From positions 17,277,999 through 17,341,998 of the forward strand of contig NC_092565.1 in NCBI RefSeq assembly GCF_037975245.1: a stretch of DNA of 64,000 nt, in the 5' to 3' direction. A model generated the notes under the pieces. That model saw only the letters and a list, made by a program, of their open reading frames with translations. It ran no database searches and was not told the DNA's origin. A program made the position numbers and the translations under genes. Position 1 is the stretch's first letter, and each line of letters opens with the position of its first letter. This DNA is from Apostichopus japonicus. Its lineage: Eukaryota > Echinodermata > Holothuroidea > Aspidochirotida > Stichopodidae. Shown in pieces: positions 2,251-64,000 of this stretch.

Positions 2251-2254
2251 AATG

Positions 2255-2470: not shown

Positions 2471-3023
2471 GCGATTGTCAAGGATGTCAATTTTTCACGC
2501 AACTTTTTTTCGAACTCACTTGATTGATGGGCCCCGCTCCATTGCCGGGCCCAGGGCCCGGTGATCACTTAAGACGGCCCTGCTGCAGGTTAATCTTCAG
2601 CCTGAGTAGCCGTCATCAACAACTTACAAGTAATTTACACTTTCCATTTCGCGCCATTGCCATACTGTTGGAATACTAGAGAGGGCTCTTGAAAACGGAA
2701 GTACTACGTCACAGGTCAACTTCTCTGTTGTCGAAACACCTTGTAGATCAGTGTTTGGAACTAACCTCAGCCATCGAGTTTAATTAAGGTACATGTGACT
2801 TCTAGAACAACGACATCCAGACTCATTTCTACGGGTTTCTTCTTACAAATTCTTATCATAATCTTTAGGAGCTTGTTTTACGTATTAAGAACATTTTTTG
2901 TAAAGTTAAGAAACTCGTCTTGGCGTGTTAGGCCCAGGTTAAGTCAGTTCGTTCAAATTAATAGTCTATTTTGCCAGTCGTGAAACTAGTACTGCTACTA
3001 CTACTAGTACAGTAGGACTAGTC

Positions 3024-3976: not shown

Positions 3977-4387
3977 GGACTAGTCTAGGTACAGCCTACT
4001 CAGCTGAGTAATGTGTGAATCATTAGGCCTAGGCTAGGAGTCGGACTACTTCATTAGGGCTTATCAGTAGCATGGAGGTCTCATAATTGACGCACTTAAG
4101 GATTTTCATATGTGTAGCTCCTCAAAAATGTAATGATCTCAATATATTGATTGTTCTGTGCATACGTAATACACTACAATTGACTATTGAGCACAGTTTG
4201 ACCACAAAATGTCTACTGTGTCAAGTTCTTTCATACCCCGAAATTAACATTCTTCGATAAGCCAACTGTAAGTATACATCTATTGACTGTGGATGCTGTT
4301 TCCTATGCTCTGGGCCTCTAAGGCCAGACAGGTCAGGTCCCAGAGAGTAGTGGTATCATGTTAAGCCTAGTTAAATGCATTGAAATT

Positions 4388-4738
4388 GACTAGCCCCAAA
4401 CCGCGCTGCCCCTGAAAAAGTTAACTTTCCGTTGCTTGCAAGTGAAGTTTTATTCATTTCGCTACAAAATGCAGACAGTAATGGAACATGATACATTGTT
4501 ATCTTTTATCTAGACCTGAGAGTGAGATATCCATCGCTGCTATGTACACTGTGTTGTGGGTATTCACCGTAGCTGCATGAATTGACTTGTACACTAGTGT
4601 CTAATTACAGACGATAGCAAGCTGTGTGTGTGTTTTCTGGGATCGAAGGTGGTGTCTAACACTTCTGTACACCTCATTTGAAACTAGGTCAGATTACCGG
4701 CATCAGACGTTTCTTTGTGCGCGAGTCTTCACTCCCTG
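4388..4738 (+). repeat. Segment with an inverted copy at 39815-40170
   Basis: About 350 bp that reappear in reverse complement at 39815-40170 at roughly 80% identity by eye. Shared landmarks are GCCCCAAACCGCG, ATCCATCGCTGCTATGTACAC (one base differs between copies) and GCGCGAGTCTTCAC. No coding potential is shared by the two copies. It is either a dispersed repeat or a small inverted duplication; it sits upstream of the PBDC1-like exons and might carry an old 5' region. Confidence 0.65.
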
Positions 4739-4740
4739 TA

Positions 4741-6612: not shown

Positions 6613-9033
6613 GCTAGTGTGGAAGGTCTGTGGGCAGTACAGACTATGCATCATTGTGAAACCTACAGTACATGAATGTGAGTGTTTCATAAATTTTATG
6701 TGTTGATGTTTGTTTACTTTAATAAAAAAACTATCGTTCACTGTAGTTTTGAAGGGTAGTGAGGACTGAGGAACATAAAATATTCCTATAAAGCACCAAA
6801 ATAAATAGTGTTACTACTGTTGATGTCTGAGCTATATGTTATGAACCAAATGTTCTACAGTCTTACTGTACTTTGACCAATTTTTGGTAGGGATGTGTAG
6901 AAGGTCATACAATATGTAATTTTCTCCAAACCTCTTTACTTTTAAATTAAAATTTGAATTTAGTACTTGTTGGAGCTCCAAGGATAACTGTTTTTTTTTT
7001 TATGTAGGGAATGGGGGGGGGGGGTGGTGAGATGATGAGGCTACCCATTAAGGTAAGATTTGCTGTAAGCTACTTGCTATCTGCTGTGCATTCAGAAACC
7101 TGTTGATGTTCCATACTCAATTCTCTTGCAGCTCATATCTTCTGTTGATTCAAGAATCTTGAAACTCAGCGACTGGGATGACCTCATCCTGGAAGATTTC
7201 CGCAAAGACTTCCCAAATTTTGAAATAAGTCTTGTCAAAGAAGACCACTTGAAGAAACCATCTGCTAAAGTGGTAAGGAAGTTGAAAGACTGTACAGTAG
7301 CAGTTTTTGTGATGCACAGCTGATATCCTCATCAATTCTCTCCCTTCTCCAAATCCCTCTCTTTCATCACTGAGTTTGATATGTTGGTGAGCTTTCTTTA
7401 TTGGTACTATATTTCAACTGTTTTTGTCATATATATTTCAACTTCATTCATGGACAGTCATGGATGTGGAATATAAAACATACAAATGTTGTCCTACTTG
7501 TGTAGCATACTGTTGTGGAAGTCTGTCTTTGAAATTGTATTTAAATAATGATTTCAAAGGCCACAGTTTTGTGATGTTCATCTGTGGTTACCTATTATAA
7601 AGGAGCTGCAACAAGAAACTTTTCTCCTATCTAAGTAAAGTATATCAATACGAGAGCCAGTATTTTGATACTGAGGGAGGGGATGGAGAGGAGGGCAGGG
7701 AATGCCATGCTAGGATAAAATCCTAGACCCTCTTTGCTGTTATGTTTATATATGGATGTAGGTTTTTACTGTTCCAGTATAAACTTCATTTTCTGGATTT
7801 GTCAGGGACAGAGGTTGTTGGTTTAGAAAGAAAAAAAAAACATCTGGAAAATCCATGTTCCTGTACAACTGTATAGTGTAAAACTTTGACTTTATAGTAT
7901 TATAACAGAGAGCATTTTACCATGATCTGCACCCTCCCCTTACTCAACAAGTTCACCTATACAATCTCTTAGTTGGTAGCACAGACAGGAAGTCCTCCTA
8001 CATCACACTTCCCAGAAAGATTACTAACAGTTTCTGTTTACAAGCCATAAAGATAATAATATACTTCCCCATCTTCTAAGTCTCGATGGATCACTTACAC
8101 TTTGACTTCCACAGCATAAAACTCTCTACAACAAAAACCCTACACCTGTCTGTGTATATATTATATCTCTACACAGATCTCTACCAAGAAAGTAACCTTC
8201 AATGTGATGTCATTGATTATGTCACAGTGCCAATTTCTCAGTAGCCCTGCCTCTGTTTCTTGGTAGAGTGTGTGTCAACAAGAGGACAGAGTAACTTCCA
8301 GTCCCATCCTCTGTCACCAACAAGTTTCAAGTTAACTCAAAATCCAGTATAAATTACATGAAAGTAAATATTTATAAATAGGATATGACAAACATTTAAG
8401 AGTTATAATGCTTAAAATAGCATGCAATATATGTACAAATAATAAATCAAAAGTTAATAAATTAATTAAAGGAGGTTTTGTGTAACAACACCCTGAATAA
8501 ATAAAGCAGCCCTATAAATGAAAGAATTTTCAAAACGTACAGTTCGAAATTTTGGCGTGATTGTCCTATTTCTCAAATTATAATTAGTCTGTTTAGTATA
8601 TAAGATCAAACTTTCACCAATTGTATTCAGTAGTATATATCTAGCCATATGAAGCTCTAATATACCCGTTTAAATCAACTGTTTGTTCATGTCCTTTTTT
8701 CATGTTCAAGCACCGGTGTGACAGAATCTCTGCAATGTATGTTATTGTGTGAAATACAGTACTACATGTTTCAAACAGACTTCTTTTTATTGTATGTGTC
8801 GTTTTGGTACTGTAACTGTACAAGAGTACTGTAACTTCAACCTTACCAACGTAGTGCTACTATTATTATTATTATTATTATTATGATTAATTATTACATG
8901 TTATCTCTTATTCTTTTTCAGAAATGGCGGACAGTTTGCAATCGTTATAAAGAAGAAATAAAGGACTTCAATCAAGGACTACTCATCAGGTTAGACTGCA
9001 AGAAAGATTACTCAGAAGAGAATACTATTTTAG
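6613..9033 (+). pseudogene. PBDC1: PBDC1-like gene, incomplete and damaged
   Basis: Three consecutive blocks match PBDC1, a small conserved cytosolic protein. Block 1 (6613-6672) reads VEGLWAVQTMHHCETY, matching the family's WAM..M.HAE.Y segment. Block 2 (7132-7272, 47 codons, clean AG and GTAAGG borders) begins LISSVD and contains FRKDFPNFE. Block 3 (8922-9033) contains NQGLLIRLDC and EENTIL and ends at GTGAGC; blocks 2 and 3 join in phase. Block 1 is damaged: between its last conserved codon and the GTGAGT donor at 6678 there appear to be five extra bases, giving an in-frame TGA. The conserved family C-terminus (RIQF.AIEIARNREG) is not found downstream. The best acceptor after block 3, at 10094-10095, leads to a stop after about eight codons. 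The likeliest reading is a decaying duplicate, but an assembly indel in block 1 plus a missed last exon is possible. Confidence 0.7.
8466..8640 (-). mobile_element. Possible LINE reverse-transcriptase tail fragment
   Basis: The minus-strand frame reads YNLRNRTITPKFRT followed by SFIYRAALF. This resembles the C-terminal tail that follows the reverse transcriptase domain in many non-LTR retrotransposons (YNLR ... RSFxYRGAxLWN). The fragment is short and ends abruptly, and it lies in the intron before the third PBDC1-like block. A chance match cannot be excluded. Confidence 0.35.
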
Positions 9034-25790: not shown

Positions 25791-26388
25791 AATGGCCTGC
25801 AAGGACGTAGGAAGCGGGGGCTGGGGGAGGGGGGCGGGTGGAGCGAAATCCCCACCTGAAACATGGGGGCGGAAGTATGCTTCTGCCCCCCAGTCGTCGA
25901 GGGTAAAAAAAACCTTTCATTTTTGAACTATTTTCTGAAGTTCAGAACGTAGGCTTTCACCATTGTTCAGACTGTTTAGTACTGCGATTATTGGGAATCA
26001 CTATCTCCGCCGGAAATTCGCAGCGTTTGAGCATACCGTCAAAATAAGTCAGGATCGAACCTCGTCCAGACCAATGTGCTGCATGTTTAGGTTGTGCTAG
26101 CTTATACGCCACAGTGTGTACAGAACTCCGTTTGCTTTGTTTATGTACAAATTCAGACATTTGTGACACTAAACAGCATCTGGTGGCCTCTAATTGTTCA
26201 ATTTTTTTAAGACCCTCCCCCAGGACGGAGATCCCAATCCATCATGCATCATCAGGGGCGTATCCAGGATTTTCCAATAGGGGGGGCGCCAGGCATGAAT
26301 GATCGCCGTCCTGGGGGATGGGTCTAAGGGGAGGGGTGTACAATTTTTGCTTTCAAAGAAGGGCTGAAATGCAAAATGGTGTCATATG

Positions 26389-27229
26389 CATGGGCGGCGA
26401 TCCGTACTTCCGAGTGGGGGGGGGGGGGATATGACCTTGTTGACTATCTAAGCGTAGCGCCACCATGAGTTGGCGCGAAGCGTACAAGAAAATTTTGGGA
26501 TTAACAAACCCTCTAGATGGCCGGAAACGGCACTTCCCGAGGTTTCCAAGCGGCATATACCCAACTTTAAAATAGGGATGTCATGTCCGAAATATCTCAT
26601 AATCAGGATCCAAAATACTTTTTTTTTTTTTTAATTTCGGGTGTTATTTTGGGAAAATTGCCCCTGTCAATCTTGTTTCAGGCGCAACGTTAGAATGTTC
26701 GAGAGCTCTGTTATATTATTCGATGAAGAAAATGGCCTCATGCAGGCTATTATAGGCCTATACACATGCAATACACAATTACACATAGTTACATTCCTAG
26801 GTACCGATTGCTAGGGCATCCAGGTGAAACGTGTATTAAGCATTACCCTGGTTACATGAGATTCTCAGCTGTTCGAGGGAACATGTACGTGTGTAGGCCT
26901 ACTATAGGGCCTATATGAATACTATGAGGGTGCATCAATACCGTGGGCGCAATAATACATTTTGTTGTTATAGGGCCAATGAAGCCTACAGTCAACTATT
27001 TTTGCTTTATAAAGACGCTTTATTTGAAAAGATCGCACTGCGTTTATGGTAGGCGAGAAATGAAGCTAAAAAAGAGCCGTACATTAACGAAGATGCATAA
27101 ATGTAGGCATGAAAATATTCTTATCCCTGGCATTTGGTGGGGGGGGGGGGGGGATATGGTGCATTACATCCCCTCCACCCATTTTCATGGGGGGATATAT
27201 CCCCCCTCCACCCAGGATCGCCGCCCATG
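26389..27229 (+). mobile_element. Nested hAT-like element within composite copy A
   Basis: The ends CATGGGCGGCGATCC and GGATCGCCGCCCATG are exact inverted repeats. The flanks are GTCATATG and GCCATATG (7 of 8 matching). The left part contains a G-run followed by the hairpin-bearing AGCGCCACCAT module that is shared with other hAT elements in the window. It is non-coding; the open frames through it are G/C-run artefacts. Confidence 0.8.
26449..26551 (+). repeat. Hairpin module shared by hAT subterminal regions (copy 1 of 5)
   Basis: A block of about 100 bp contains TAAGCGTAGCGCCA, then loop CCATGAGT, then TGGCGC, forming a perfect 6-bp stem. It ends with an ATGGCCGGAAACGGCACTTCC-type segment. 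Related copies lie at 29447-29545, 29879-29976, 30771-30868 (all plus) and 49056-49152 (minus). In the delimited hATs that carry it directly it lies about 60-80 bp inside the left terminus, so it is probably a conserved subterminal part of these elements. Confidence 0.75.
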
Positions 27230-35979: not shown

Positions 35980-37886
35980 ATGAGATTCCAGTGAATACGA
36001 AAAGCTGATAAATAGTTTTACCAAGCAATCCATTGAGCACGAATCCAAGACCAAACAGAAAACCACCGGTTATACCCACCCTCCTGTTTTGGAATCCCTT
36101 TAGCAGAGGTGCAGAAATTCCAGCTGCAAAAGAATGATCCCGCATGAATAAGACATCAATATATGCGGGGCAGTCGGTTGAGGGGAGAGGATTGTCAGTG
36201 TTGTGAAAAATGAAAACAACATCTCACTGCCCCTCTACATTTGTCACGCCCTCTCCCCATCTTATTGCGCCGCCTCTGGCTGCATGAAATAAACTACTGC
36301 TATCATACCTTATTTTATAATGGTTTGGTTCGGCCGGTGCGAACTTCCAGGGCCCAGGTAATTGGGGCCCGATGTCAAGGACCGGAAGAAATAACCAGTC
36401 ATCCGCTGCAGCTCGCAGTAAGTTGACCATAGGCGTGTGAAGCGGCCATGATTTATAATTACACATGCAGCCAGTAGGCAAATCACTCACTACAAATAGG
36501 AGCAATTCAAAAGAAATCTATTCCCCAACAAAGACAACCTGCATGAGAGTGCCATACCCGGTCGTCTTGAGGTGCAAAAAAATTCTCAAACAAGCCCAAT
36601 AAACCATGCATGGTTCACATTGGTTAATGTGGATTCTCATTGGGGCTCATTATCATTGTGGCACCGGGCCCTGTTGGTCCTTACTACGTGATACCCTCTG
36701 CAGTATGTAGCAAATAATACTTCAAGAAAGGATTGAAACATATAAAAACAGTTAAGCAAACATGCACAGATCTGGCTAAGTTAGTTTTCTTTGATTACGT
36801 TAACACAGTTTTATTTTTGAGTTATAGGTATAAACCGTTATTTGTCAAAAATGTTTTGATTTGATTCGATAATGTGATAGGAATATTATGTAAGCTTACC
36901 GACGATATATGCAATTGATGCTTGGCAAATAAATACCCATCCAACATAAATATTAGAGGTGTTTTACGCTATCACAAGATCATCAAATAATACCCCGAAA
37001 GCTTTGAACGTCCCGCTTTGAAAGAAAACGACTAAAATTCCCGAAAATAATATGCCAATTGAAACGAACAGTTTTTCAATGTGTTCTTCACCATTTTCGT
37101 CACACAATTAACCAGTCACTGGAAGAACAGTGTGATGGCGTTGTTATATATGCCACTATCTGATAGTGACTTGTTGTGGATGAGAAAATTTTGATGAAGT
37201 AAAACAAAAAAATTAATATAGGTGCAACGCACGAAACTGAAACAAAATGGTTCCTTCATTTGTATCACATTTCTTAGGAAAAACAATTGAAATTCGTTCA
37301 CGAATGTTGATATCATACAGATGTAGATATACTGTCTAGATATTTATTATTTAATACGCAATTTCAGCGGATGACAAGAAAAAAGTTGTCAAATGTCAAC
37401 AGTATGGGAATAAACAAAGCCGTTTATTTGCACACTTCATCAATAGCGCCGTCCCTTCTCAAAATATCGAAGAAGGTATATTAACAGCTCTCATGTTGGT
37501 ACTGTCTTATCTCTCCCTGTCCCATTCTGCTCTAACCTGTCCCCTCCCCCAACACCACTCCACTAATTCATGTTAAAGTTTATTATTAAGCATTGTTAGT
37601 CTCATTGTTTTTACAACTTCTGTTGATTGATCATATTCACACTTTAGACAGCTATACTTTCATTCTCTCTTGATTATTATTCACAGTGGGAGAATGTAAT
37701 GATATAGCGGTGTATTTGATTAGTAAAGGTGGGGGGGGGGGGGGTGCCCGGGCTCGCATAGGGCTAGTCAGGTTAGTAATGTAGAACAACAAAAGTTAAT
37801 ACAACAATGCATGCAACATGTTTATAGGATACAGCTCACATAGTTGGTTAAATTAAGCTATATTTGCCCATAATTTTACAGCCTCT

Positions 37887-48003: not shown

Positions 48004-49355
48004 CAGGGGCGTATCCAGGGGGGGCGCAACAGGCGCGCGCCCCCCTATTGGCCGTCACCAAAAAAAAAAAAAAGTTTAGCAAAAAAAAAAAAAATTGATG
48101 ACGACCTTGATGTGAGATGTTGGTGATCGCTCAACCCCCCCCCCCCCCTCCCGTATGCTTTATTTTTTGTTTGCCAAAAAAAGGTTCTGGCGAAGTTCGG
48201 CGGCATAATAGTTTTAGAAACATAGATGGTAATTGTGTTGGTATTATCACTATAAACACTAAATGACATGCCAGCCATACTAAATTGTGCATTTTGTGTC
48301 CATGTGTCCATGTGTCACTGGAAATGTTGCTTATTATTAAGGTCGAAAAATGAATCACATATGGCCATGGGCGGCGATCTTGGGTGGAGGGGGGATATAT
48401 CCCCCATGAAAATGGGTGGAGGGGATGTAATGCACCATATCCCCCCCCCCCCCACCAAATGCCAGTGATAAGAATATTTTCATGCCTACATTTATGCATC
48501 TTCGTTAATGTACGGCTCTTTTTTAGCTTCATTTCTCGCCTACCATAAACGCAGTGCGATCTTTTCAAATAAAGTGTCTTTATAAAGCAAAAATAGTTGA
48601 CTGTAGGCTTCATTGGCCCTATAACAACAAAATGTATTATTGCGCCCACGGTATTGATATAGTACATATATGCACCCTCATAGTATTCATATAGGCCCTA
48701 TAGTAGGCCTACACACGTACATGTTCCCTCGAACAGCTGAGAATCTCATGTAACCAGGGTAATGCTGAATACACGTTTCACCTGGATGCCCTAGCAATCG
48801 GTACCTAGGAATGTAACTATGTGTAATTGTGTATTGCATGTGTATAGGCCTATAATAGCCTGTATGAGGCCATTTTCTTCATCGAATAATATAACAGAGC
48901 TCTCGAACATTCTAACGTTGCGCCTGAAACAAGATTGACAGGGGCAATTTTCCCAAAATAACACCCGAAATTAAAAAAAAAAGTATTTTGGATCCTGATT
49001 ATGAGATATTTCGGACATGACATCCCTATTTTAAAGTTGGGTATATGCCGCTTGGAAACCTCGGGAAGTGCCGTTTCCGGCCATCTAGAGGGTTTGTTAA
49101 TCCCAATTTTTTTTTTTACGCTTCGCGCCAACTCATGGTGGCGCTACGCTTAGATAGTCAAAAAGGTCATATCCCCCCCCCCCCCCCACTCGGAAGTACG
49201 GATCGCCGCCCATGCATATGACACCATTTTGCATTTCAGCCCTTCTTTGAAAGCAAAAATTGTACACCCCTCCCCTTAGACCCATCCCCCAGGACGGCGA
49301 TCATTCATGCCTGGCGCCCCCCCCCCCCTATTGGAAAATCCTGGATACGCCCCTG
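48004..49355 (-). mobile_element. Composite hAT element, copy B (inverted)
   Basis: Reverse-orientation copy of 26254-27587, near-identical over long blocks, including the same element nested at the same internal place (nested ends near 48366-48380 and 49201-49218). The termini are CAGGGGCGTATCCAGG and CCTGGATACGCCCCTG. AGGCACG stands on both sides (47997-48003 and 49356-49362), one base short of the usual hAT eight. It lies about 135 bp upstream of the SLC16 copy 2 start codon. Confidence 0.88.
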
Positions 49356-49473
49356 AGGCACGAAACTGAAAAAAAAAAACAATGGTTCCTTCAATTGTAT
49401 CAAAATTTGTAGAAAAAACAGTGGAAATTCGTGCAAGGATGTTGATATTTTACAGATGTAGATATACTGTCTA

Positions 49474-49870
49474 CACTGTTAAAAATATCTGTCAGTTTAC
49501 AGACTTTTTTAACATAAATTTCCGGTTTTTTCCCATTAACCAAAAATTACTGTATTTTTACAAACAGTTTGTATTGCTACAAAAACAAAATGTAATATAA
49601 CATATATTTTCTGTTTATTTAGAAAACAACTATTTTCTATTTTTTTAACAAAATTTGACTGCAATCATTAATATTTTTACAGAAGTAACTGTAAATTAAA
49701 GTAACAGTTGAAAAATCCTGTTATTTTACAACTTATATCTGTTTTATTGCAATAACATGATCGCACTGTTTTTTTTTTACCATCAATTTGTATTTACTAC
49801 GACAAAAAAATGTTTTTAAACAGAAACTTTTCATTTTTACGGAATAAACAAATATTTAGTATTTCAATTA
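49474..49870. repeat. Left terminal and subterminal region of the 13.9-kb transposon
   Basis: AT-rich, with degenerate copies of CTGT(A/T)n and TTTACAG in both orientations. These mirror motifs at the right end and are likely transposase binding sites. Confidence 0.6.
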
Positions 49871-50299
49871 GCAACACTATAGGGTCCTTTTATAGACCAA
49901 TTCATCGTATGTTTCTTCAAGCACAATCTGACTGAACAATATATGGGATGCGCTCATCTCGGGTGTGTGGTCCAGGGACCCGCTTCGGGCCCTAGGTTAG
50001 TCAATGTGTTTTCGGGACCTTTGGGCGATGCCCATGCACGGAAGCTCTGGGGTTTAAAAAAATTGTGATCATTATTAACTGTCTTCAATTGGCATTGAAT
50101 GCGCATTAAATAGACGGAAAAAAATCTATTTAATTTGGGCATTTTTATTTCAAATAATTTAAATTTGAGTAAATGCCGATCGATTTCGTGATACAGCGAG
50201 CATGTGGGTGAGACAGATTGATGTTGTTAAGGGTTGCATTGGAGTGAAAAACAACGTACAGCGTGTATGGCACACCTAATGCAGTCCAGTGGTTTCGCA

Positions 50300-51383
50300 A
50301 TGGCTCGGTGACCTAAGGTCACGGTTTCCACCTGGGTTCACGAGTGTAACATATGCATATTAACGTTTCCCGCCAAAATAACAGTCCACGGCCTGACGTA
50401 TCAGTGCACAAGAAACTTTTTCAGTTATACGTACAATACAACAGCGCGCCGAACTCCGACCACGTACGTACGTACACACTATTACTGCTTGCGTCCAGCA
50501 TGCAGTACACAACACTAGCTGCCTTTTCACTGATGACGCAGGAGAATTTTTCAATATTCGACTGAGGTGGGTGTAGTGGAAGTTCATTCAAGTTTTGTTA
50601 GCAAATAAGTTGGTAGAAACATTGACTATTCATCAATAACAAATTCTTAGAAGGCTTATTCTTGCCGTTTCGGAAAATCTGTTAAATGTTTTTGTATAAC
50701 GGATGCGATAACTGAGCTTTATAGTTATAGGCTAGGCCGAATAGCGAAGGGCCTAGCATAACGTTAGGCATCACTGGCTAACGGTGGTCTTAGTCCGGAG
50801 CGATATTGATGAAATAAAATAATAGCCTAGGCCTATAGGCTTGGCCCATATATATATAATTTAAAAACTTAGGTTTTTGCTATTGCCTGTGCGGCTGTAG
50901 CCTGGGCTATTAATATTAATAGGCTACTTTTAACCGAATTGTTGATTAAGTTTAAGCCAACATTACTCATTAGCTTTGAAAACTTATGATACCCAACAAA
51001 GCTTAGGGCCTAACAGTAATGCTACAGTAGTTTTACTGTGTGAGAACCAGTATGAGTTGGACTGAACCTGTCCACACTACCAGTACCACAGTCTCTCAAT
51101 CATTTTGACACAACCATTTGCATTGATTATGCATCTAGACAAAATCATGTGTACAAAAAGAAGCAAGTAGGCAAGATCTTTCCTATATCTTGTACTGTAG
51201 CTGTACTCAGTACATGTTCAACTTCAAACATATAAAAATTGTGTAAATTCACTGTAGCTTTAACAACCGAAGTTAGTGCAAATGAAATTGGTGTGGGTTT
51301 ATAAGTAGGTTATTCAAACTTTTCCAAATTGGCAGGGTTTTCCTACTCGTATTCTCATAGTTCTGTACATCGTGAGACTAAAA
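50300..51383 (+). promoter_or_regulatory. Probable promoter and leader of the zinc-finger gene
   Basis: About 1 kb before the first gene of the transposon. It contains the exact palindrome GTGACCTAAGGTCAC (about 50309-50323), a CpG-richer stretch with ACGTACGTACGTAC near 50463-50477, and a possible splice acceptor TTGGCAG near 51330-51336. No TATA box in a defended position. Confidence 0.35.
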
Positions 51384-54104
51384 ATGTTTGTTGGACTTTG
51401 CAACATTTGCAAGGTAACAACACGTTCAGTGAGTGAGTATGTGGCTCATGGACGGCGCCATAGAAATCAAGCCAATTCTCAATTTCAGTGCTGTTTTCAA
51501 GGATGCAAATACATATTTTCAACTTTTACAGCACTGAAAGTTCATATAACAAGGAAGCATCGTAACCAGAGACATGTAGAGCAGTCAAACAGATTTCATT
51601 CTGTTAATGTACCACTGAAGTGTGCTATTGCATACTGTAAGAAAGAATGCTCTGATTTGCATGCATTTTTAAGTCATCTCAAAAGTCACATGAATAATGG
51701 TCAGACAGTTGAATGCCCGTATGTTTCATGCAAGAGAAGGTACCACAAAAAGGCAACATTTTGTGTTCATTTGTCTCGTTGCCACAGAAATTGGTGTGCA
51801 AAACGTGTGAAAAATGCTCACAAAAGTTTCAGATTTGATGCTGTAATTTCAGAAACAGCAAATAATTATGATGTAGAAACTGGCAATGCTAATAAGCCCA
51901 CTACTGCAGAAGAAAGTTTGGATATGGAATTTGGGGAAACTGAACATGACAATGTCATAGAAGTTGAGAGTAATTCTGATCAGTCAATAGGGGAATTTTT
52001 GAAAAGTTTTGCATTATTTCTACTTAAGCTGCAAGGGAAACAATTAGTCCCAGAATCAACCGTACAAATTATTGTAGAGGAACTAAGAAACATACATGAC
52101 ATTTGCCTAGAATCTCTTAAAGTTAGGCTTACAGCAAAATTAAGGGCCGAAAACATTTGTAATGACCGTATTCATTCATTATTAGATGACCTTAACTTGG
52201 GAAATGAGTGGGATGTTGCTTTGGACAGTAAGAAGGGAGAACTGCGCTCAAAACATAGTAGAAAAGAGTACTTTAAGTCACTGAATTTTGTTTCCCCAGA
52301 AGCTGTTCCCCTTGGGAGGGATATTTCAGGAAAAATGCATTACTGTCATTATGTTCCCATCTTGCAGACAATTAAAGTTCTCATTGATAATGACTTGATT
52401 CCAATAAAATCAGACAGGAGAGCCAACAACATGCAGCTACCAGTGTTTACAGATATAACAGATGGGAAAATTTTCAAAGAAAATACACTTTTTGGAAGTG
52501 AGGAAAATGCATTGTCGGTTATTTTATTCCAAGATGCCTTTGAAGTAGTGAATCCACTTGGATCTGCCAAAAAGAAACATAAAATATTGGCTGTGTATTT
52601 CACTCTGGGAAACATTCCTCCTCAGTATAGGTCCCAGGTAGAGTCATTGCAACTTGCACTTCTTTGTAGAGAGGTTGATTTCAAGAAGTATGGACAAGAA
52701 AAAGTATTTAAAAGGCTATTAAGAGACTTGAAATTACTAGAAGAAACTGGTGTACAGGTCAAAGGTGGGCAAATTCGGAAAGGTTCATTGGCATGCATAC
52801 TAGGAGATAATTTAGGCTCACACACTATTGGCGGATTTGTTGAAAGCTTTTCATCTAAACATTATTGTAGGTATTGCTTACTGAGTTCAGCTGAATTTCA
52901 GTCAGGTGAGCCATATGCTCTGGGAAAGTGCAGAAGTCCCACCGAATATGACAGATGTGTAGAACATCTCCAACAGTCTGGTGAAGATAGCTTTGAGGGT
53001 ATTAAATTTAACTCCCTCTTCAATAATTTAAATTACTTCCATGTCTGTAATCCTGGCCTGCCACCTTGCTTGGGCCATGACCTTTTTGAAGGGGTAGTGG
53101 ATTATGATTTGAAACTCTATATCGATTACTGGGTTAATCAGAGACATTGGTTTACGTACCAAGACTTAAACAGAAAGTTAGAACTGTTTAAGTTCACTGG
53201 TAGTGACATCAATAACAAGCCTGCTCAGATAAATTCAAATAAAAGCAGACTTGGTGGAAATGCAGTTGAGAACTGGTGTTTGCTTAAACTTCTCCCAATT
53301 TTGGTGGGCCAGCAAATTTTGGATAAATCTGACAATGTTTGGAAACAATTTCTGCGTTTAAGAGAGATTGTTCAGCTTGTTTGTGCTCCTCAAATATCAT
53401 GGGATGAAATTGTTTATCTGAAGGTGTTAATAGAAGAGTACCATGAGGAAAGAAAACAAATCTTTCCTGATGTGAAGCTTAGACCAAAACATCACTTTCT
53501 TTGTCATTATCCAGAGTTGACAGTTAAGTTTGGCCCTTTAATCAGAGTGTGGACACTGAGGTTTGAAAGCAAACACTCTTACTTCAAACGGTGTGCTAGG
53601 AATTGCCATAACTTTGTTAATGTAACACATACGCTGTCAGAAAGACATCAGCAGCTGCAGGCATATAATAGTGCAGGGAGTATGTTTCCTGAAAAAAATT
53701 TCATTGAAAAAGGTGAGCAACTAAATCCTGAGGTTTTTAGTCCTGAAATTAGGGCTTCCCTGCAGTCAAAAGAGTTACAGGTTGATTCAGCCACAGTGAG
53801 TAACAAATTAAAGGTCTATGGTACTCAGTACAGTGCAGGTTTGTTTGTGGCATGCAAATGTACAGATTCAGTCTTGCAATTTGGCTGTATTCTGTTGACT
53901 CTTTTATGTAACAATGATGCATTTCTTGTTGTTAAACTGCATAATGCTACCCTTCTTGAGGAACTAGGTGTGTACTTGCTGCAACCATCAAATGATATAG
54001 ACTGTCTGAAGGTTTCAGAACTTTGTGACTATTATCCATTGTCAGCTTATCCAGTTCAAGGAAGACTCCTGCTTCCACTGAAGCATAATTGTTTCCACTC
54101 ATGA
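51384..54104 (+). CDS. C2H2 zinc-finger protein, candidate transposase (906 residues)
   Basis: One uninterrupted exon. The ATG at 51384 gives MFVGLCNICK; no upstream in-frame ATG is closer. Four C2H2 fingers lie in the first 150 residues, the second to fourth with the C-x4-C spacing (CFQGC, CAIAYC, CPYVSC). A core region follows with LGDNLGSHTIGGF (D about 479), a YCRYC pair, GHDLFEGVVDYDLKLYI (D about 570), PKHHFLCHYPEL and RFESKHSYFKR (E about 732). The acidic residues in GDN, HDLFEG and RFES are candidates for a DDE catalytic triad. Related proteins occur widely in fish and invertebrates, usually as unnamed products. An AATAAA stands at 54301. The location inside a complete transposon supports a transposase role, but catalysis is inferred. 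Confidence 0.85.
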   Translation: MFVGLCNICKVTTRSVSEYVAHGRRHRNQANSQFQCCFQGCKYIFSTFTALKVHITRKHRNQRHVEQSNRFHSVNVPLKCAIAYCKKECSDLHAFLSHLKSHMNNGQTVECPYVSCKRRYHKKATFCVHLSRCHRNWCAKRVKNAHKSFRFDAVISETANNYDVETGNANKPTTAEESLDMEFGETEHDNVIEVESNSDQSIGEFLKSFALFLLKLQGKQLVPESTVQIIVEELRNIHDICLESLKVRLTAKLRAENICNDRIHSLLDDLNLGNEWDVALDSKKGELRSKHSRKEYFKSLNFVSPEAVPLGRDISGKMHYCHYVPILQTIKVLIDNDLIPIKSDRRANNMQLPVFTDITDGKIFKENTLFGSEENALSVILFQDAFEVVNPLGSAKKKHKILAVYFTLGNIPPQYRSQVESLQLALLCREVDFKKYGQEKVFKRLLRDLKLLEETGVQVKGGQIRKGSLACILGDNLGSHTIGGFVESFSSKHYCRYCLLSSAEFQSGEPYALGKCRSPTEYDRCVEHLQQSGEDSFEGIKFNSLFNNLNYFHVCNPGLPPCLGHDLFEGVVDYDLKLYIDYWVNQRHWFTYQDLNRKLELFKFTGSDINNKPAQINSNKSRLGGNAVENWCLLKLLPILVGQQILDKSDNVWKQFLRLREIVQLVCAPQISWDEIVYLKVLIEEYHEERKQIFPDVKLRPKHHFLCHYPELTVKFGPLIRVWTLRFESKHSYFKRCARNCHNFVNVTHTLSERHQQLQAYNSAGSMFPEKNFIEKGEQLNPEVFSPEIRASLQSKELQVDSATVSNKLKVYGTQYSAGLFVACKCTDSVLQFGCILLTLLCNNDAFLVVKLHNATLLEELGVYLLQPSNDIDCLKVSELCDYYPLSAYPVQGRLLLPLKHNCFHS

Positions 54105-54779
54105 CTTTCTCAACAATGATGATGGTACTTGGCCATGTTATGGATGTATGTGCATGCATTTACCTTGCCTCATGTGTTCAATATGTCACATGTTTACACA
54201 GGGTCTAATACCGTACATTCAGCAACTATCGTTTTAAGTTGTGTATGTTTATTGCATGTAAGGCATATATGCAGTTTCCCCAACAATGCTTCAAACATCA
54301 AATAAACCTATCAAATATCAATGCTGGTGCTTCTCTGAGAAATTTTAGAGCATTTGGATGATTCACAACAGAAATGTTGCACCTAGCCTCAATTCAACAA
54401 TTTATTCATTTAGTTCTGTTTTCATGTGAGTGAACACTCACTCCTCACTTGGCCTATCATAGTCCACAAATTCAAATTTTGGGACTGCATTTGCTATTTA
54501 ATACATATTTATTCAGGCTTTATAATGTACTGAGTAGTTATCTTTCCTTGAACAAAGATCTACATTCTTGATAGTGCAGGAAAACAAAGTAATCTGAGCT
54601 AAAGTAAAGGAATAGTCAATGCAGTGGTCATTATTTATTGCTTGAGCCATTGTGTAAAAATAGTATAGTAGTATTTGTCAGTTTGAGGTGTCAACTCAAT
54701 AGTGACAGACGTTCACATTAACAAAATCAGTCAGCTATATGTTTCTTGCTGTTGGCAGAGTGGTTTGTGTTGATTCAAA

Positions 54780-57327
54780 ATGGAACTGTCAGATACATCT
54801 TCAGATGATACTGTCCTTCTTGGTCCAATTGAGAGTGCTGTGAGTGATGTCTTTCCACTACTGCCCACCTACAAGATTAAGGAGGTGCTAGAACTGCTCA
54901 TAAGAGCAGGAGTTGAAAGTGTTGCAGATTTAAAGTATGTTACAGAAGAGGATCTCCACAATTTGAAACCAATTCAGCGGAGAAAGCTTTTGAAAGCTTG
55001 GTCTACAAGGGTTGAAGGTACTGTATCGTCCAGACTCCAGTATTTTGTACATTACTTGTAGTAGGCCAATTTAGTGTGCACAGCACAGTACTTGCAGAGT
55101 GAGGAGGCAATATGTGACCTGGAAACTATCGTGTTTACCAAAAGGACAAAACAATTAGTACCAAAAGTCATTACAGTTCTGAAATCAAGAGTTTGTGACT
55201 AGATCATGCTTGAACAGCCTACATGTAATCTTGCAAGTTTATCTGCTTAGTTGAGGTAATCATTCATGGACAGTTGCTTAACAGAAACTTTGCAGTGTAA
55301 ATATGTACAAGACTCTAAACTTGTAATTAATAAACATTCCAGTGCTTTTATGTCCACACATTCTCATCCCTGTTTTCAGATAGACAGTGTTTTCGTTTTG
55401 CCAATGGCATACTGTACACTACTTGTATTCTGTATCGATTTCAATTGCAGTTGTTTAGAGAAATGAGGAAATGCAAGTTTGTTGGCTTGTAGCTAATGCT
55501 TTCATATCATTGTAAGACTGGTTATGTACATATGTGGCAACAAGAGGCTACACTAGTTCTTACATATTTCTTGGAAATTTAATGTTTTTATTCATTGAAA
55601 ACATTTCTGTTAGTTTTAGAGGTAGTCCTCGCCCCATTTCATGAAGAGTTACGCTCAGTCTTAGTTTGATTTATTGCTAACTTATGTTCTACATATCAAA
55701 CTTGACTGAGCATAACTCTTTGTGAAACAAGGCCCTGATGTTCAATTTTTCCTTTTTTTGCCAGATACTACCCCAAGTGAACTAAATCACCAACTGGAGT
55801 TGGGAATGGAAGATTTTCAACTAGTCGGATCAGTTGCTTCTTCAGAGTCATCCAGCTCAAGTCCAGGAACTCCTACCTCACTAAAGAAGCACTGGGTGGA
55901 AACTTTTACAGTCCAGTGGAACAAAATGCCTAAGAACTTAAGTGATTCATTAAAGAAATGTGCAAGGCCATCACCAAGAGACAGAAGGGAAATGATACGA
56001 ATAATATGTGATGACATCATGAAGAAAAATCGCAATCCGGGCCGTAAGAATCTTGCCATTATTTCAAAAACAATTGTTGATTCTTACCCAGCAAGCTTTA
56101 GAGATGACATAGGCGGTGAAGTTATTGGAGATGGCTTTGAATCTGTACTTAAGCAAATGGAAAACAGAATCAACAACCTGAGGCGGACTGAAACATATCT
56201 GCCAGGAACGTCTTCATTGACCAGCACATCAGATGATGAGTCTTCAGAACAGAAGCCTAAGCGAGCAAAAAAACGAGACTCTTATGGTTGTCAGAACTGG
56301 CAACCAAAAGGGTTGCCAGAGAGGGAAGACGAAACATCTCAAAAAAGGAGAACCCTTGAACTAAAGGAAATGTATGAAAATGAAGATAAGTGGGATGAAG
56401 ACATCATTCAGATGAACATGAAACTGTTGTATTTCACTATCCGCACAATGATCAATACAAACAGCATAACCCTCATAGGGATAATAGAAGAATACCCATT
56501 TCTCCTGGAAAGCATTGGTATGATGAGCCACTTTCATGAATTGGTTGGTATTGAACTGATGCCTACTCTTTCTAAATCTTTAGATACCAAAGGTCAGTCT
56601 GTTATGCACTATTTGAGGAAAGTTGCTACCAAAAAGCCAGCTTTAAAAGATGTTTTTGATGCCATAGAAGTTGCCAGAGCAGAAACAAACGATCTTACTC
56701 CTGAGATGCCTGGATTAATCTGGCTACTTACTTGCTACTTTGGGGAGAAAGTAGATACCCTGTTGTACCTATCAAAGGTGAGTATTTTTATAAAGTGAAC
56801 TGATATTTTTTTTTCTATTTCATTTATTTGCAAAGGTTGTCATGCTGGTAAATTACTTGGCAAATATTATAGCAAGATAAGGTTGAAGACTACAGTAAAA
56901 AGTGCAATTTCACCCTGGTAAAGTTGAACTAACCATAGATTAGTTGAAAGCCTAATTTTAAGCAAGGGATGGCAAAGTGGGGATTTTAAGTACAATTTCA
57001 GTGTCACATTGTTATAGTCTCTGTAGTGTTATGTTGATCAGCCTTTCAGGACACCTTACATAGAGTTGCAGATCAGCCCAATGACAACAACCTGACTATG
57101 CCACGGGTGCAGAATATGTTCTTAGATCATGCCAAAAGCAATGTGTGTACTCGAGGTGTAATGCCACATGTGTTCTTTTAAGTGTGTTTATACAGACTTG
57201 GTCAAAATGTGTGCTGTATATGGCACAATAATTAAACATTATTTAGTAATGAGTAGTCATGTAGACTGCCATCATGATGGCTACTGAAGTGAACTTTGAC
57301 CTACACTAAGGTGACAATTAACTGCTA

Positions 57328-57366
<39 letters not shown>

Positions 57367-60031
57367 CTGCCATATAATATCCTAACTAGGGCCCTGTTCC
57401 ATACAGAGTTTTTCTTTGTCTTGAGTGTGATTTAAAGTTAAACACAGACTATGAATCAAATCTAAGATTGTGGGTTACTCTTTGTAGAATGGGGCCCAGA
57501 TCAAATTGTTATCCAATTTCTGCCACCAGACAACTTTGTATAAGTTTCAGGTTTTAAAATACAAGTTGCACATATTTTACTTTCCCAGGAGACAAGCAGT
57601 GATCAGGAGGCTGTTTCTGGCTTGAACTCTCCATCACCCTGTATTGTTGTTTTGGGTAAGCTTCTTGAATGTACATTTTGGGTGTTTCTGTTTACAGAGC
57701 TTTGTTATTTTCATCAACAATATTTAAGCACATCAGATTTAAAGTATCCCTTGGATCCTGCTCAACATTTTGTTTGAATACTACTGATTGTTTTACCAAG
57801 CCTGTCTTTTCCTACCATTGATCCCTTGCTAGGCTCAGACTATAGTAGGAATTCCTGTTTCTTAATTCAAATGCAAAGTCTTCCTTTCCAAATTGTGCAA
57901 TAGAGGTATATACTTATCAAAAGTGTTCTAAATGTGACATGGGAACAAATGTACTAGCTTTCAGTGTGGTAGATGAGATACTGAGAAGCAGTTTGCCAAG
58001 ATTTAGTATAATGTGATATTTAGATGAAAGAGAAGATTCATTTATTGTAGTTACATCTTCTGGCTATGATGGGAAGTGGCTCTAAATATGCCACAAACCA
58101 TTGTCAAAATTTACGGATCAGTCTGGCGGCAGTAATTTAGACTCAGTTTGGTGTAATGGCATAAGCAATCATCCAACTCTTACTTGGAAGCATCAGCTAA
58201 ATCCTTCAAATCTCTCATTCAGGTTGGTTCAGAACGTTAATGTCCAGTAGTAAAGGTAAAAATGCAACAGAAACATTGTTTTGAGATTAAAAGAATGACG
58301 TGTACATATTTATGAATTAGTATAGAGGGTTTGTAGTCAGAATGGGGTAATTGCATTTGGCCTTTCAAGTTATGCATAAGGTTTGCATAGAATCCAAGAT
58401 GCAAGGCAATAGATAGATGACCAATGCTCTTGTTTGGTGTGATACCTATTCTTACAGAGGCAGGGCAGAGAATTTTTTTCTTCCAATGTGGGGGAGGGGT
58501 TGTCCACTGATTTAGGCTTTGCATCATTCAGTGAAAAATCAGTGGGTTCTGCTTGCAATTCACTTTTGATCTTGTCATTGCAGTTTCTAGGTTAAGTGTT
58601 TAATGGACATACCTTTTTTAAGGTCCCTAAAAAAGTTACTACTCTTGAGAATGTTACATGATAATCCTTCAGTAAAAGAGTGGAAACATATTCTTAGTCC
58701 GTAACAGCACTAAAAAAAGTCAATTTCGGAAAATAATGACAAAGTGAAACTTGGATTGACATTTTTATCTTTGTTTGAATATTGATATCACAGGAACCAA
58801 ACTGTTGGCCGGGCGGAAGTATATGATCGCAGTTGACAAGGTAGTTGTCAATCATCTTATTGCTGATTTTCAGAGTGCCCTTGCCTACCTCTTTGCCACA
58901 TACTATGTTTTAAACATTCAGTATCCTGCAGACAGCTGTGTGACATTGGAGTTCATCCAGAGGTAAGTGTTAATGGAATATGAATGAATATTTGTACAGC
59001 AGTGGTTATAGCTGGGATTGGAGTTGTAACTCATGGTAGTGTTTTCCTTGTATAGTGTGTTTTCTACCAACACTTGGGAAAGACTTGAACCAGTGTGAAA
59101 TTCAGTTGAGTAGTTACACAAGTAAGTCATAATTTGTCTGTCTAGAGAGAAGATCATGATCCCAACTTAGAATACCATTGAAGGTACTGTTACATGAAAT
59201 TTGGTCATAGTCTAACTTAACAATTATTTACCTCAGTTTAGATGAACTGCTGCAGTAGGTGTTTAGTGTTAAATAGTAACAGCATCATTAATTTGAAGAT
59301 CGTAGAATATTTATGCAGTGACATTATTTGTAGAGCCCTAGTCCCATCAACATTGGGATTAAACTTGCAACAAAATGCACAGTTGAAAAGGTCGATCCTG
59401 ATCGTTGCTCCAAGAAGATCAGTGTCCTATTTCCTTTCAACTACAATCCACCTGCATTTTGTCGATTTTGAAGTTGATTCTTGTGTTTCATCGGTGGACT
59501 TTGTTTAAAATTTACTGCTTGTAGAATTGTATAGATGGGACCCAGGCTTTAATCCTTCAAACTGTACATTCCAAATTGATTTCATGGACAGTCTTCTTGT
59601 GGAATTGACTGTTATAAACAACAACTGTTCTCAAAAAAAAAGTAATAAAAGAATTGTGAATAAGGAAATATGCTTCAAAATGTTTTGACCACAATCATTA
59701 TGACTTTCATAATTATAAATACAAACTAATATGAAAGCAGTGTGAGTAGCCATTTAATTTATACCTGAAACAGTGAAGTGAATAATTAATGTGCAACAAA
59801 TTTTCAGAAGTATCATGTTTTAAAGACATGGTTTTCTACTGGTCAAGTGTCAAGGTCAACGATGAAAATATTAATTCCCACCAAAAGTAACAAAAATCAA
59901 CTCATTTTTTTTTTGGCAGGTGCTTTGTTGGAATCAACCCACCCACATCAGGAAAAAGTAGGAAATCCTCAGCCATAAATCCCAAAGTGTTGTCTCTTTT
60001 GGGACATATCAAGGATGAGTCAACAAAGTAA
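54780..60031 (+). CDS. SAM-domain protein of the transposon (SAMD3-like, 532 residues)
   Basis: Five exons with GT-AG borders and matching phases: 54780-55017, 55765-56777, 57589-57655, 58794-58962, 59920-60031. Residues about 18-76 form a sterile alpha motif: VFPLLPTYKIKEVLELLIRA, VESVADLKYVTEEDL and RRKLLKAW. The central part has PSPRDRREMIRIICDDIM, RKNLAIISKTIVDSYPASF and a basic KPKRAKKR stretch that may be a nuclear signal. The C-terminus has ATYYVLNIQYP, TLEFIQRCFVGINPPTSGK. This architecture matches proteins named SAMD3-like in fish and invertebrates. A possible acceptor (CTGTTGGCAG) just before the ATG suggests a non-coding first exon. AATAAA overlaps the stop codon. The function is unknown; by position it may be the transposon's second, DNA- or partner-binding protein. 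Confidence 0.85.
57326..57365. repeat. TA dinucleotide microsatellite
   Basis: About 17-19 uninterrupted TA repeats in intron 2 of the SAM-domain gene. Confidence 0.95.
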
Positions 60032-62480
60032 TAAAAACATCAAACAGTGTAGTATGGTGATCAGTGGACTTATTTCGAGTTTAGTTACTACAGGAACCAT
60101 TTAGAAACGTTTGTTTTTTGTTTTTATTCAACTCATTCAAAATCAAGTTAAGATGGTTACTTCTGGCTGGAACCTCAATGTCGCCTTTAGCCACTCTTAG
60201 TGTTTCCTTCATGTATATAGACATTCAGCCAATATGTAAGGAACGTTCAGGTGGATGATGTTTTTATGAACTACGATCAGTACTGAGTACACAGACATGA
60301 AATAATCTGCACACCAATCTCCATATTCTGTGCCTCTAAAGCAGAATGGTTTCAGATGAAATTTTGTTTTAGATAATTAAAGAGAACTGAAATCTATGCA
60401 TTTTCATGGGCTTTGCATCACATTTTCTACCTAAGGTGGACTTGAAGCAAGCAGGAGATGAGACTGTAGAGTTTGTTTATGGAATTCTATTCATTCATGT
60501 TGGCATGTTATTCAGACATATAAAGTATTGATTAATATGAAGTTCTTTTACTAACACTATACTGTTACACCTGCCTGCTAAAAGTTCACTTTTGATAGTA
60601 AATGTGACACCTTCTATGACCTTACATTTCAAATTGCCCAAAGAATTGACTGCAAATTTGTGCCCTCTATCCTCTTCCTAGAGTGCTATTCAATTGAAGA
60701 AAAATTTCATCCAGTGGATTTCCTGATCATAGCATGCATTAAGGCAGTAGCCACGAAAGGAAACTCTCTAATAAGTATAAATGTTTACAAGGACAATGGG
60801 TTCATTTTAATACCAGTGCTCATGCACATTGAACCATTCCTTAAATGGTGAAATGTTTGCCATTTTTCGTTTTCAGTGGTGAGTTTATACTATGTGATAT
60901 TATTTAAACTACTTCATTTAAAAAAAAGTGTGATTACAGTGTGTAGTGCCACAAAACTATACTAGCGTATGCTTGTCTATTACTGTGTGTAGTGTAGGGT
61001 CTATAGGAATTGCACTGCCTATGCATTAAGACCAAGTTTTCCCTTTCTACATCCCCTACCCCAGTGAAATACTCCATCAAATAATTATTAATGTACTTGT
61101 GAGAATATCCATTTCTGGCTGGAATTTATATTTTAGTCTTGGTATTCATAGACATCTGGTTTGGAATTGACAGGGCCTGAAGTTGATATTGGCATGCACC
61201 AATTTTTTCAACATTGAAAAAGAGGTTTACTGTTTCAGTTTTGGACTTTAAGTTACTTCCTTGTTGATTTACTAAGTTCTGTGTTTTTAGTTTCCATTTT
61301 GACATTTGCATTGCAAAAATGATTGCATGTTCATGATATCATGGCTCAGCTTTATATGAAAATGTTTGAAAGTTGTGTAATAATAATTAGAAAGTTTGAA
61401 GCTTATAACGTCAATTAACCCTTAAGCCTACCATGTAATAAGGTTTTGGCTAATGATTGTTTTCCATTTGAAATGCCCACTTTGGGATAGTTTCAGGGTG
61501 TTTGTCGTCCCAAACTGGGGTCTTCCACTTCATGGGTTGAAAAATAATGTTTGAAACTGATTTACAGAAGATGATCATATAGTTGTTCTTGAATAGTTGG
61601 TCATAAGCCACATGCCTTGACCAACTCTATGGAGAATTTTTAATACTGTGAGGAGGCTGACATAATATAGTATATGATTATAAATACATTACAAGGATAT
61701 TATTGTATGAAAAATCTTACTTTAGCTTAATATTCGGTGAAGAGCTTTTTGCAGTATATGCCATTTAGAAAGTTTATAATTGCAGTCAGTTTGTAAAATT
61801 AAGGGTCACATAGTTTGTGGTTTTTTTGGGCAACTTAATTGGCCCTAACCAAAGATAGCAACAAATGAAGTAGCTTTCAATGTATTGCTTTTGGTGTAAG
61901 GTGATCTTACCACAGCTTGAGAACAGTTGCAAAACCTGTATCTCTTATTGTTCCTATACAGACTTTTGTAACTGGTTTGTAATTGCCTTGGCCTGAAGTT
62001 TGTGATATCAGTCACCAGTCTTTTCTCAAATCTTGAAAAGTAGAATTATTGTTTCAGTGTTGAAGTTTAAGTTCTCTACTTGTTGTTTTATAATTGAGTT
62101 TTTGTGTTTCTAGTATCTACTTAAGAAGCTTTTAGTTTTAGTAAAGTGGTGAAAAGTGATAGGTTAAAAGCACCTTTGTATGTGCATGTTTTTGGGGAAG
62201 ACCTCACTCCAAGATGAATGAAGAAGTTGTGTAAATAAAGGGTGAAAATAAACATGAGCATTTCAACGTACTTCTACCGTATATTTTTGGCGTATTCCTT
62301 AAGTATGTACTTTCTTTTTGTAGAAACCTTGCCGTAAACTAAGACAGATAAAACCCATCAATTTATTTTAATTGTCAATATCAAATTTTCACACTTATGT
62401 TTCTTTTTTATGGAATTGATACACCATTAGTAATTCACATAAAAAAATTGTTAAAGGACAGATTTGGTAGACAAACACGT
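60032..62480. other. Right non-coding arm of the 13.9-kb transposon
   Basis: About 2.4 kb without convincing exons. It contains two diverged copies of a 110-150 bp block (61160-61310 and 61985-62115). They share GGCCTGAAGTT, TTGAAAA, TGTTTCAGT, TTAAGT and CTTGTTG in the same order. Confidence 0.55.
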
Positions 62481-62484
62481 TAAA

Positions 62485-63130
62485 AGCGTCTGTAAAAAAA
62501 ACATAAATTTGAATTTTATCAGAAGATTTAAGCAAATTGACTGAACGATTAACATCAAAATCCTGTAAAAAAGACAGAATTTAGGAGTAAAACCGTCTGT
62601 AAAAAAACAGACAAAATTGTAATTTTATCAGACGATTTGGTAAATTAACATCGAAAACTTGTAAAAAGACAGAATTTAGAAGTAAAACCGTCTGTAAAAA
62701 AACAGACAAAAATTGTAATTTTATCAGACGATTTGGTAAATTAACATCGAAAACTTGTAAAAAGACAGAATTTAGAAGTAAAACCGTCTGTAAAAAAACA
62801 GACAAAAATTGTAATTTTATCAGACGATTTGGTAAATTAACATCGAAAACTTGTAAAAAGACAGAATTTAAAAGTAAAACCGTCTGTAAAAAAACAGACA
62901 AAAATTGTAATTTTATCAGACGATTTGGTAAATTAACATCGAAAACTTGTAAAAAGACAGAATTTAAAAGTAAAACCGTCTGTAAAAACACAGACAAAAA
63001 TTGTAATTTTATCAGACGATTTGGCAAATTAACATCGAAAACTTGTAAAAAGACAGAATTTGGTAGTAAAACACAATTAAACTGTCTGTAAACAAACAGG
63101 AATAAATTGTAATTTTATCAGAAGAATTCA
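62485..63130. repeat. 96-bp subterminal tandem array with hairpins
   Basis: About six units, the inner ones nearly identical. Each contains GTCTGTAAAAAAACAGAC, a perfect 6-bp hairpin, then TTTTATCAGACGATTTGG and ACATCGAAAACTTGTAAAAA. The period of 96 bp is a multiple of three, so a repetitive minus-strand open frame (62581-63027) results; it is an artefact. The array lies 220 bp inside the right terminus. Confidence 0.9.
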
Positions 63131-63352
63131 GTTAAATATACATGAGAACAATGCTAAATAAAACAGAATTTTTATGTTATTCTATTTAACAGATTATTCT
63201 TGTGAAAATTTTAACTGGAAAACTATGTAAAAAGAAAACATTATTTTCCAGTTAATTCCTTTTTACAGATTGTCTGTAAAAATAACAGGAAACGATTGGA
63301 AACTTTTTTTCCAATCGTTTTCTGTTAATTTACAGAAATTTTTTTAACAGTG

Positions 63353-64000
63353 TAGATATTAAACATTTTATTCAGCAATTTCAGCGGATGACAAGAAAAA
63401 AGTTGTCAAATGTCAACAGTATGGGAATAAACAAAGCCGTTTACTTGCACACTTCATCAATAGCGCCGTCCCTTCTCAAAGTATCGCAGAAGGTATATTA
63501 ACAGCTCTATCATGTTGGTGCTGTCTTATCTCTCCCTGTCCCATCCTGCTCTAACCGGTCCCCTCCCCCAACACCACTACACTTCATGTTAACGTTTATT
63601 AGTTAGCGTTGGTAGTCTCATTGTTGTTGCAACTTCCGTTCATTGATCATATTCAAACTTTAGACAGCTATACTTTCATTCTCTCTTGATTATTATTCTC
63701 AGTGGGAGAATATAATGATATGGGGGTGTATTTGAGTAGGAAGGTTGGAAGTGGGTGGGGGGGGGGGTTCTCTGGCTCGCATAGGGCTAGTAAGGTTAGT
63801 AATGTAGAACAAGTAAAGTTAATACAACAATGCATGCAACATGTTTATAGGATATAGCTCACATGGTTGGTTAAATTAAGCCATATTTTTGCCCATAATT
63901 TTATAGCCTGATAGATGTAGCTAGTCAAATTTATATATTAGTGTAAAACCAGACTACTTTTAAATTGTCTGATAGAATTGCATAAGTGACTGTGAGATTT
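63353..64000. other. Far flank of segmental duplication copy 2
   Basis: Matches 37337-37886 up to about 63907, including GACAAGAAAAAAGTTGTCAA, ACACTTCATCAATAGCGCCG and CATGCAACATGTTTATAGGA. It is the former 5' flank of SLC16 copy 2, moved 14 kb away by the transposon. Nothing is recognised after 63907. Confidence 0.75.

Follow-up and report, generated by a model that had tools for sequence, protein, structure and literature searches.

Two neighbouring genes in the genome of the sea cucumber Apostichopus japonicus, one coding for a zinc-finger protein and the other for a SAM-like protein, raise the question of whether they are host genes or the machinery of one mobile element. The window analysed is a 64,000 bp stretch of contig NC_092565.1, and within it positions 49474-63352 (forward strand) form a complete two-gene transposon of 13,879 bp, here family F1. 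Comparison of the ends places the terminal inverted repeats at 49474-49485 (CACTGTTAAAAA, forward strand) and 63341-63352 (an inverted copy of CACTGTTAAAAA, reverse strand). The left end reads TA followed by CACTGTTAAAAA and the right end TTTTTAACAGTG followed by TA, the flanking dinucleotides at 49472-49473 and 63353-63354 being the target-site duplication. The initial annotation had proposed a complete element with exact CACTG inverted ends, which the ends, the flanks and the other F1 copies, stopping at identical bases, all bear out. It had also placed an uninterrupted paralogous target near 37337. Flank alignment locates this site at 37229-37884 (forward strand), with a single TA at 37337-37338. 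The left flank of the element (from 49358) is 82.8% identical to 37229-37338 and the right flank 90.4% identical to 37337-37884, and the two matches overlap by exactly one TA. When the flanks are joined, they align to the empty site with no gap at the junction (600 of the 653 aligned columns are identical overall), and this claim too can stand. The left neighbour of the element (48474-49356) is repeated in inverted orientation at 26252-27118 with 96.4% identity, outside the element.

The TA flanks reported for the window copy are present on both sides but do not hold as a strict rule. A strict TA target was rejected because CA/CA and TG/TG duplications are found at other insertions. Each of the 26 independent insertions is flanked by the same 2 bp on its two sides (21 TA, 3 CA, 2 TG). 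For F1, matching dinucleotides were found at 14/14 insertions with both ends read (12 TA, 1 CA, 1 TG); this count is the window copy and 14 other loci, minus C17:11.43 Mb, whose flanks are the same as those of C17:11.08 Mb. At two more F1 loci the left end alone was fetched, and one of these (L014) has no exact CACTG tip. Groups F2, F3, F5, F8, F9 and F10, represented by two loci each, gave 12/12 identical dinucleotides (9 TA, 2 CA, 1 TG) when the termini were set at the point where the two copies cease to match. These termini are CACTGTTAAAAA in F2, F3, F5 and F8, CACTGTAAAACCC in F9 and CACACAAAG in F10. The last of these (L052/L053/L064, on C7) is a related two-gene group in which the ends are not CACTG and the duplications are still TA or CA. 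As the dinucleotides are identical at all insertions, the duplication is 2 bp long and TA-preferred, and it is separate from the inverted repeat. A pattern search for CACTG-N24-CAGTG was uninformative, giving 655 matches per strand against 455 in a reversed control.

The genome (671,581,487 bases in 35 contigs) was searched for both proteins. At least 60 matches to the 906-aa protein were found (50 of 411 candidates scored) and at least 89 to the core of the second gene (121 of 124 candidates scored). As the initial annotation had anticipated for a transposon, both proteins are multicopy in this genome rather than single-copy host genes, and the same kind of ends surrounds the same gene pair elsewhere. 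Seven F1 copies, including that of the window, have an uninterrupted transposase frame at 99-100%, and one further copy has a transposase at 91% with stops. The F1 left end has 17 matches, one of them of 50 bases only, and the right end 15, excluding 13 weak matches to an inverted part of that end. A 7,932 bp derivative on C21 (L087, C21:17570330-17578280) is missing element bases 1567-7406 (window 51040-56879), an internal deletion of about 5.8 kb that takes away the entire transposase gene and the first two exons of the second gene, and is flanked by its own CA/CA duplication. Close to it in size are F1 copies on C3 and C10 (7,899 and 7,825 bp), known by their ends, for which the genome protein searches gave no match to the transposase or the second gene. 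Gene-less derivatives with duplications of their own are as expected of elements moved in trans. A 1.1 kb sequence at C16:13300686-13301818 is F1-like at both ends with TA on each side, and is perhaps a miniature derivative. The F1 copies at C17:11084779 and C17:11433370 (L001 and L002), about 350 kb from each other, agree in both flanks over the sequence compared, which points to duplication of a C17 segment that includes the element. By their exon 1 peptides F8 and F3 are closely related, the F8 copies being damaged. Directly upstream of an F3 copy on C9, retroelement-like open frames were seen by eye (L036:3-1624).

Subterminal hairpin arrays had been described for the window copy. What stands of this is a tandem array at the right end (62548-63072; 96 bp x 5.5), its units containing GTCTGT-N-ACAGAC, and a motif concentrated at both ends; the hairpins and a left-hand array do not. 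One hairpin with 8-bp arms lies in the left 450 bp and 2 in the right 900 bp, where shuffled sequence gives about 0.5 and 0.6. As chief subterminal feature they were rejected, not being clearly above the shuffles, and a tandem array looked for at the left end of the window copy is absent. The motif, CTGTAAA/CTGTTAA in either orientation, was picked after inspecting the sequence and has 4 copies in the first 500 bp, 14 in the last 900 bp and 8 elsewhere in the element; it also lies within the CACTGTTAA tip. Tandem arrays are present at one or both of the ends read in F1, F2, F3 and F8, and are not present at the ends read in F5 or F9.

The first gene is one open frame of 906 aa (51384-54104, forward strand), and the ORF, alignment and profile comparison point to an EnSpm/CMC-like DDE transposase. 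A four-finger C2H2 protein of this length had been annotated, and the frame and pattern matches agree with it: the fingers lie at aa 6-26, 36-59, 80-102 and 111-134 (51399-51785, forward strand; also seen in the PDB profile search), all N-terminal of the core. In an alignment of ten proteins (A1), 28-61% identical to that of the window, residues D384, D475, C495, C498, D566, H704, H708 and E728 are invariant (10/10). The D-D-CxxC-HxxxH-E arrangement of CMC transposases is found in D384, D475, C495/C498, H704/H708 and E728. Four tnp2 (Transposase_21) proteins from the same genome share D268, D359, C378, C381, D456, H591, H595 and E615 (4/4). The spacing of the two sets is closely similar, with 91 residues from D to D in both, 20 and 19 from D to C, and 20 from H to E in both.

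Twenty PF02992 (Transposase_21) matches were found in the genome and five fetched; one of these, L071, was moved into A1 as a distant member of the window transposase's clade, and the other four were kept apart. Comparison of the transposase profile with these four by hhalign gave a probability of 99.6 (E=9.2e-24) over 403 columns with the motifs aligned. L071 is the nearest relative and had itself been found with PF02992; leaving it out as a control gave a probability of 99.4 (E=1.3e-21). Unrelated controls gave E=0.61 (A1 against A2) and E=0.31 (A3 against A2). Pfam itself gave no Transposase_21 match to the 906-aa protein. Among nine relatives scanned, Transposase_21 was found in L071 (1.9e-5), F6 (5.3e-4) and F2 (5.6e-3), all under the cut-off, and was absent from the other six. 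A PDB profile search with A1 (best 60 of 128 chains) returned zinc-finger proteins as significant rows and none on the core, a single-sequence structure model of the catalytic core, built without relatives, reached pLDDT 30, too low for an RNase H-like fold around the catalytic residues to be read from it, and viral contigs searched with A1 gave 93 pattern matches with no relative among them. The 906-aa protein is a predicted DDE transposase related to the Transposase_21/tnp2 proteins of EnSpm/CACTA elements.

The catalytic residues need correction. The triad D479/D570/E732 had been named, and in the 906-aa protein S, G and S stand at residues 479, 570 and 732 respectively, the numbering being off by four. 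The triad intended, D475/D566/E728, was also rejected, since it confuses the second Asp with the invariant Asp of an HDLFEG motif. By homology, the predicted catalytic triad is D384 (52533-52535), invariant in A1 and aligned with an invariant Asp of tnp2, together with D475 (52806-52808) and E728 (53565-53567), both from alignment and profile comparison; all three codons are on the forward strand.

Downstream on the same strand, the second gene comprises five exons with all introns GT-AG, and this model upholds the second protein of 532 residues predicted before. Exon borders were chosen by hand from the sequence. Exon 1 (54780-55017) carries the SAM-like head, recognised by profile and model as well as by splice choice, and exon 2 (55765-56777) the conserved core, by splice choice and profile. 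Exon 3 (57589-57655) and exon 5 with the stop (59920-60031) follow from splice choice, and exon 4 (58794-58962) holds most of a conserved C-terminal module, by splice choice and profile. The exon 1 sequences of F1-F6 and F8 are relatives of one another (phmmer E from 2.5e-23 to 2.7e-6 over 195 frames), and no exon 1 relative was found for F7 over the same frames.

The head had been called a SAM domain. Its best SAM profile is indeed SAM_TNK (19.1 bits, E=0.0014), but this weak match is below the Pfam cut-off of 25. Matches are weaker still in the heads of F2, F4 and F6, and absent from those of F3 and F5 with the Pfam profiles. The F4 head (L077:3-302) scored 18.7 bits for CARD (cut-off 23.9), above its SAM score. 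A model of the exon 1 head has four helices (pLDDT 76, pTM 0.54). Foldseek searches with this model placed SAM chains among the top rows, non-significantly, with 0/115 matches at E<=0.001, and PDB sequence searches of the heads gave no significant match. The F9 head, when its 79 aa were scanned alone, is PB1-like (21.1 bits against a cut-off of 23.6, E=3.1e-4); a scan of the complete F9 frame gave no PB1 at E<=0.5. The heads of F10 and F14 resemble that of F9 by eye only and match no PB1 profile. Most groups have a SAM-like head and at least one group a PB1-like one, the profile matches in both cases lying under the Pfam cut-offs.

The two genes travel together. That both lie inside one element, as the initial annotation had it, holds for the window and for other loci with the same kind of ends. 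A second-gene core was found within 12 kb of the transposase at 43 of 49 merged loci, each time downstream and in the transposase's orientation. F9 and F10, which have a divergent second gene, account for four of the six others, bringing the total to 47/49; at the remaining two main-clade loci, both partial or interrupted, no second gene was detected. At both F9 loci the second gene is on the downstream side, and its core matches a profile of the other groups at E=1.7e-10. For F10 the matches fall on two core exons (E=3.9e-5 and 3.2e-4), and a second copy is 99% identical there; the head and C-terminal matches of F10 are not independent, because F10 sequences were in the models. Viewed from the second gene, 18 of 61 merged loci have no transposase within 12 kb, among the hits scored (50 of 411 transposase candidates), and at the F1 copy at C8:30.15 Mb the second gene is present and no transposase was detected.

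The linkage extends to the deeper clade of L071 and its relatives, where a second gene lies within 16 kb at no fewer than 22 of 54 loci, in every case downstream and in the transposase's orientation; chance would give 0.24 loci. This test used 157 second-gene places, 150 from the C-terminal-module list and 7 of another 92, and misses in this clade are weak evidence because only 150 of 673 second-gene candidates were scored. In the 7 kb downstream of the C10 copy, no clear second-gene match was seen. Among the 20 Transposase_21 loci, at least 2, of the L071 family, have one of the 157 places within 20 kb. At a third, C3:30889088, a damaged F14-type second gene, picked by eye, lies 17.6 kb off in the same orientation. 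The 673 C-terminal-module candidates came from a first look across the genome, with 150 scored, a number that points to a partner family of possibly very great size.

Trees of the transposase and of the second-protein core were compared for nine groups (F1-F7, F9 and F14, leaving out F8 and F10, which are damaged or split among exons). Five of the six splits are common to both, a result reached in 4 of 20,000 label shuffles, with none reaching six. Support is weak for one common split (40 and 38); the differing split has a support of 57 in the second-protein tree. In four between-group comparisons of both genes, pS was 0.74-0.84 (saturated) and pN 0.23-0.40. The close pair F3/F3a gave ratios of 0.52 and 0.67, with too few changes to judge. 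Saturated pS with lower pN suggests that both genes have been selectively maintained over long times. We infer that the idea of a two-protein transposition system, already raised for this locus, is strengthened by the conserved linkage, the congruent trees and the constraint on both proteins.

The element can be set beside known systems. CMCT transposases are defined by a DDE triad with C(2)C and H(3-4)H between the second D and the E, as given in PMC12730594. Signature residues, homology, CA..TG (CAC..GTG) termini and a duplication of 2 bp, within the range of 2-5 bp, all place the element in EnSpm/CACTA and CMC/CMCT. It resembles EnSpm/CACTA (CMC) elements with Transposase_21/tnp2 in its CAC..GTG ends, short duplication, D-D-CxxC-HxxxH-E order and spacing and homologous core, but differs in its C2H2 N-terminus, weak Pfam similarity and conserved second gene. 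EnSpm/CACTA elements are already known in animals, according to PMC1636069, where SmTRC1 and other TRC elements are likewise described as members of the CACTA superfamily with 2-bp direct repeats; those, however, have CCC ends and one ORF with Transposase_21. ESTA, Plavaka and Lanisha, of the CMCT clade, also have EnSpm-like transposases, and ESTA has TA duplications (PMC12730594), whereas in our element TA is preferred and not fixed. ESTA and Plavaka are reported there from fungi, some with TET/JBP genes. Spm requires two proteins, as stated in PMC1636069. In the open-access literature searched, no paper was found that links a SAM-like or SAMD3-like gene to EnSpm elements. The clade, EnSpm-like and equipped with a conserved partner whose head differs between branches, is therefore taken as new within a kind of element already familiar.

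Plant TNPA binds repeated subterminal motifs, and with TNPD forms the En/Spm pair to which our element is likened, two proteins being required there and subterminal motifs being repeated. The two proteins of En/Spm arise by alternative splicing of one unit, whereas here the partner is a separate downstream gene with a SAM-like or PB1-like head. We consider it probable that the window holds a two-protein, EnSpm-like (CMC), recently active cut-and-paste transposon whose partner protein serves, as a conserved factor, in assembly or regulation, a role inferred by analogy with TNPA. The four zinc fingers, the second protein, or both would recognise the CTGTWAA motif that recurs in the tips and subterminal regions. 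The second protein may multimerise through its head and so gather and pair the ends, or may alternatively keep the element expressed. Since both SAM and PB1 domains are known to polymerise head to tail, the multimerising role is favoured. The transposase would then cut both ends and insert with a 2-bp stagger, labour being divided between the two proteins as between TNPD and TNPA, and gene-less derivatives could be mobilised in trans.

Other readings put less weight on the partner. The second gene may be dispensable for transposition and instead protect or regulate the element, through anti-silencing, transcription control or nuclear import. Conserved linkage and constraint would fit any selected role, this one as well as assembly, and TNPA is reported to reactivate a methylated Spm promoter (PMC1636069); a pure regulator, however, would have no need of a polymerisation-type head, and we regard this reading as unlikely, though worth serious attention. 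Much less probable is a passenger origin, the second gene having been captured from the host. Transposable elements are known to carry captured genes, and unpaired second genes do occur, both in the C8:30.15 Mb copy and at the 18 of 61 loci among the hits scored. Yet a second gene is detected at nearly all transposase loci (47/49), in groups down to about 30% transposase identity, and congruent trees with saturated synonymous but constrained amino-acid change are unexpected of a passenger. Finally, segmental duplication or an assembly artefact, without transposition, could account for the two C17 copies (11.08 and 11.43 Mb) with common flanks, but as an explanation of the family it is scarcely credible given 26 independent insertions with differing flanks and matching 2-bp duplications, and the empty site in the window.

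The two-protein transposon is thus the reading we prefer. We offer more tentatively, as a possibility short of likely, that there is an animal EnSpm-like clade with an obligate two-protein machine, in which a partner with an interchangeable polymerising head (SAM-like or PB1-like) assembles on the end motifs, and that animal SAMD3-like genes are this partner, some of them domesticated relics. With copies that are almost identical and keep their frames open, transposition could be assayed directly. Taken together, the data suggest that genes of the second-gene kind, counted as host genes, may be transposon machinery. If this is true, a large and little-studied gene family would be explained as such machinery, gene catalogues that list its members as host genes could be corrected, and animals would have a counterpart of the plant TNPA/TNPD system.
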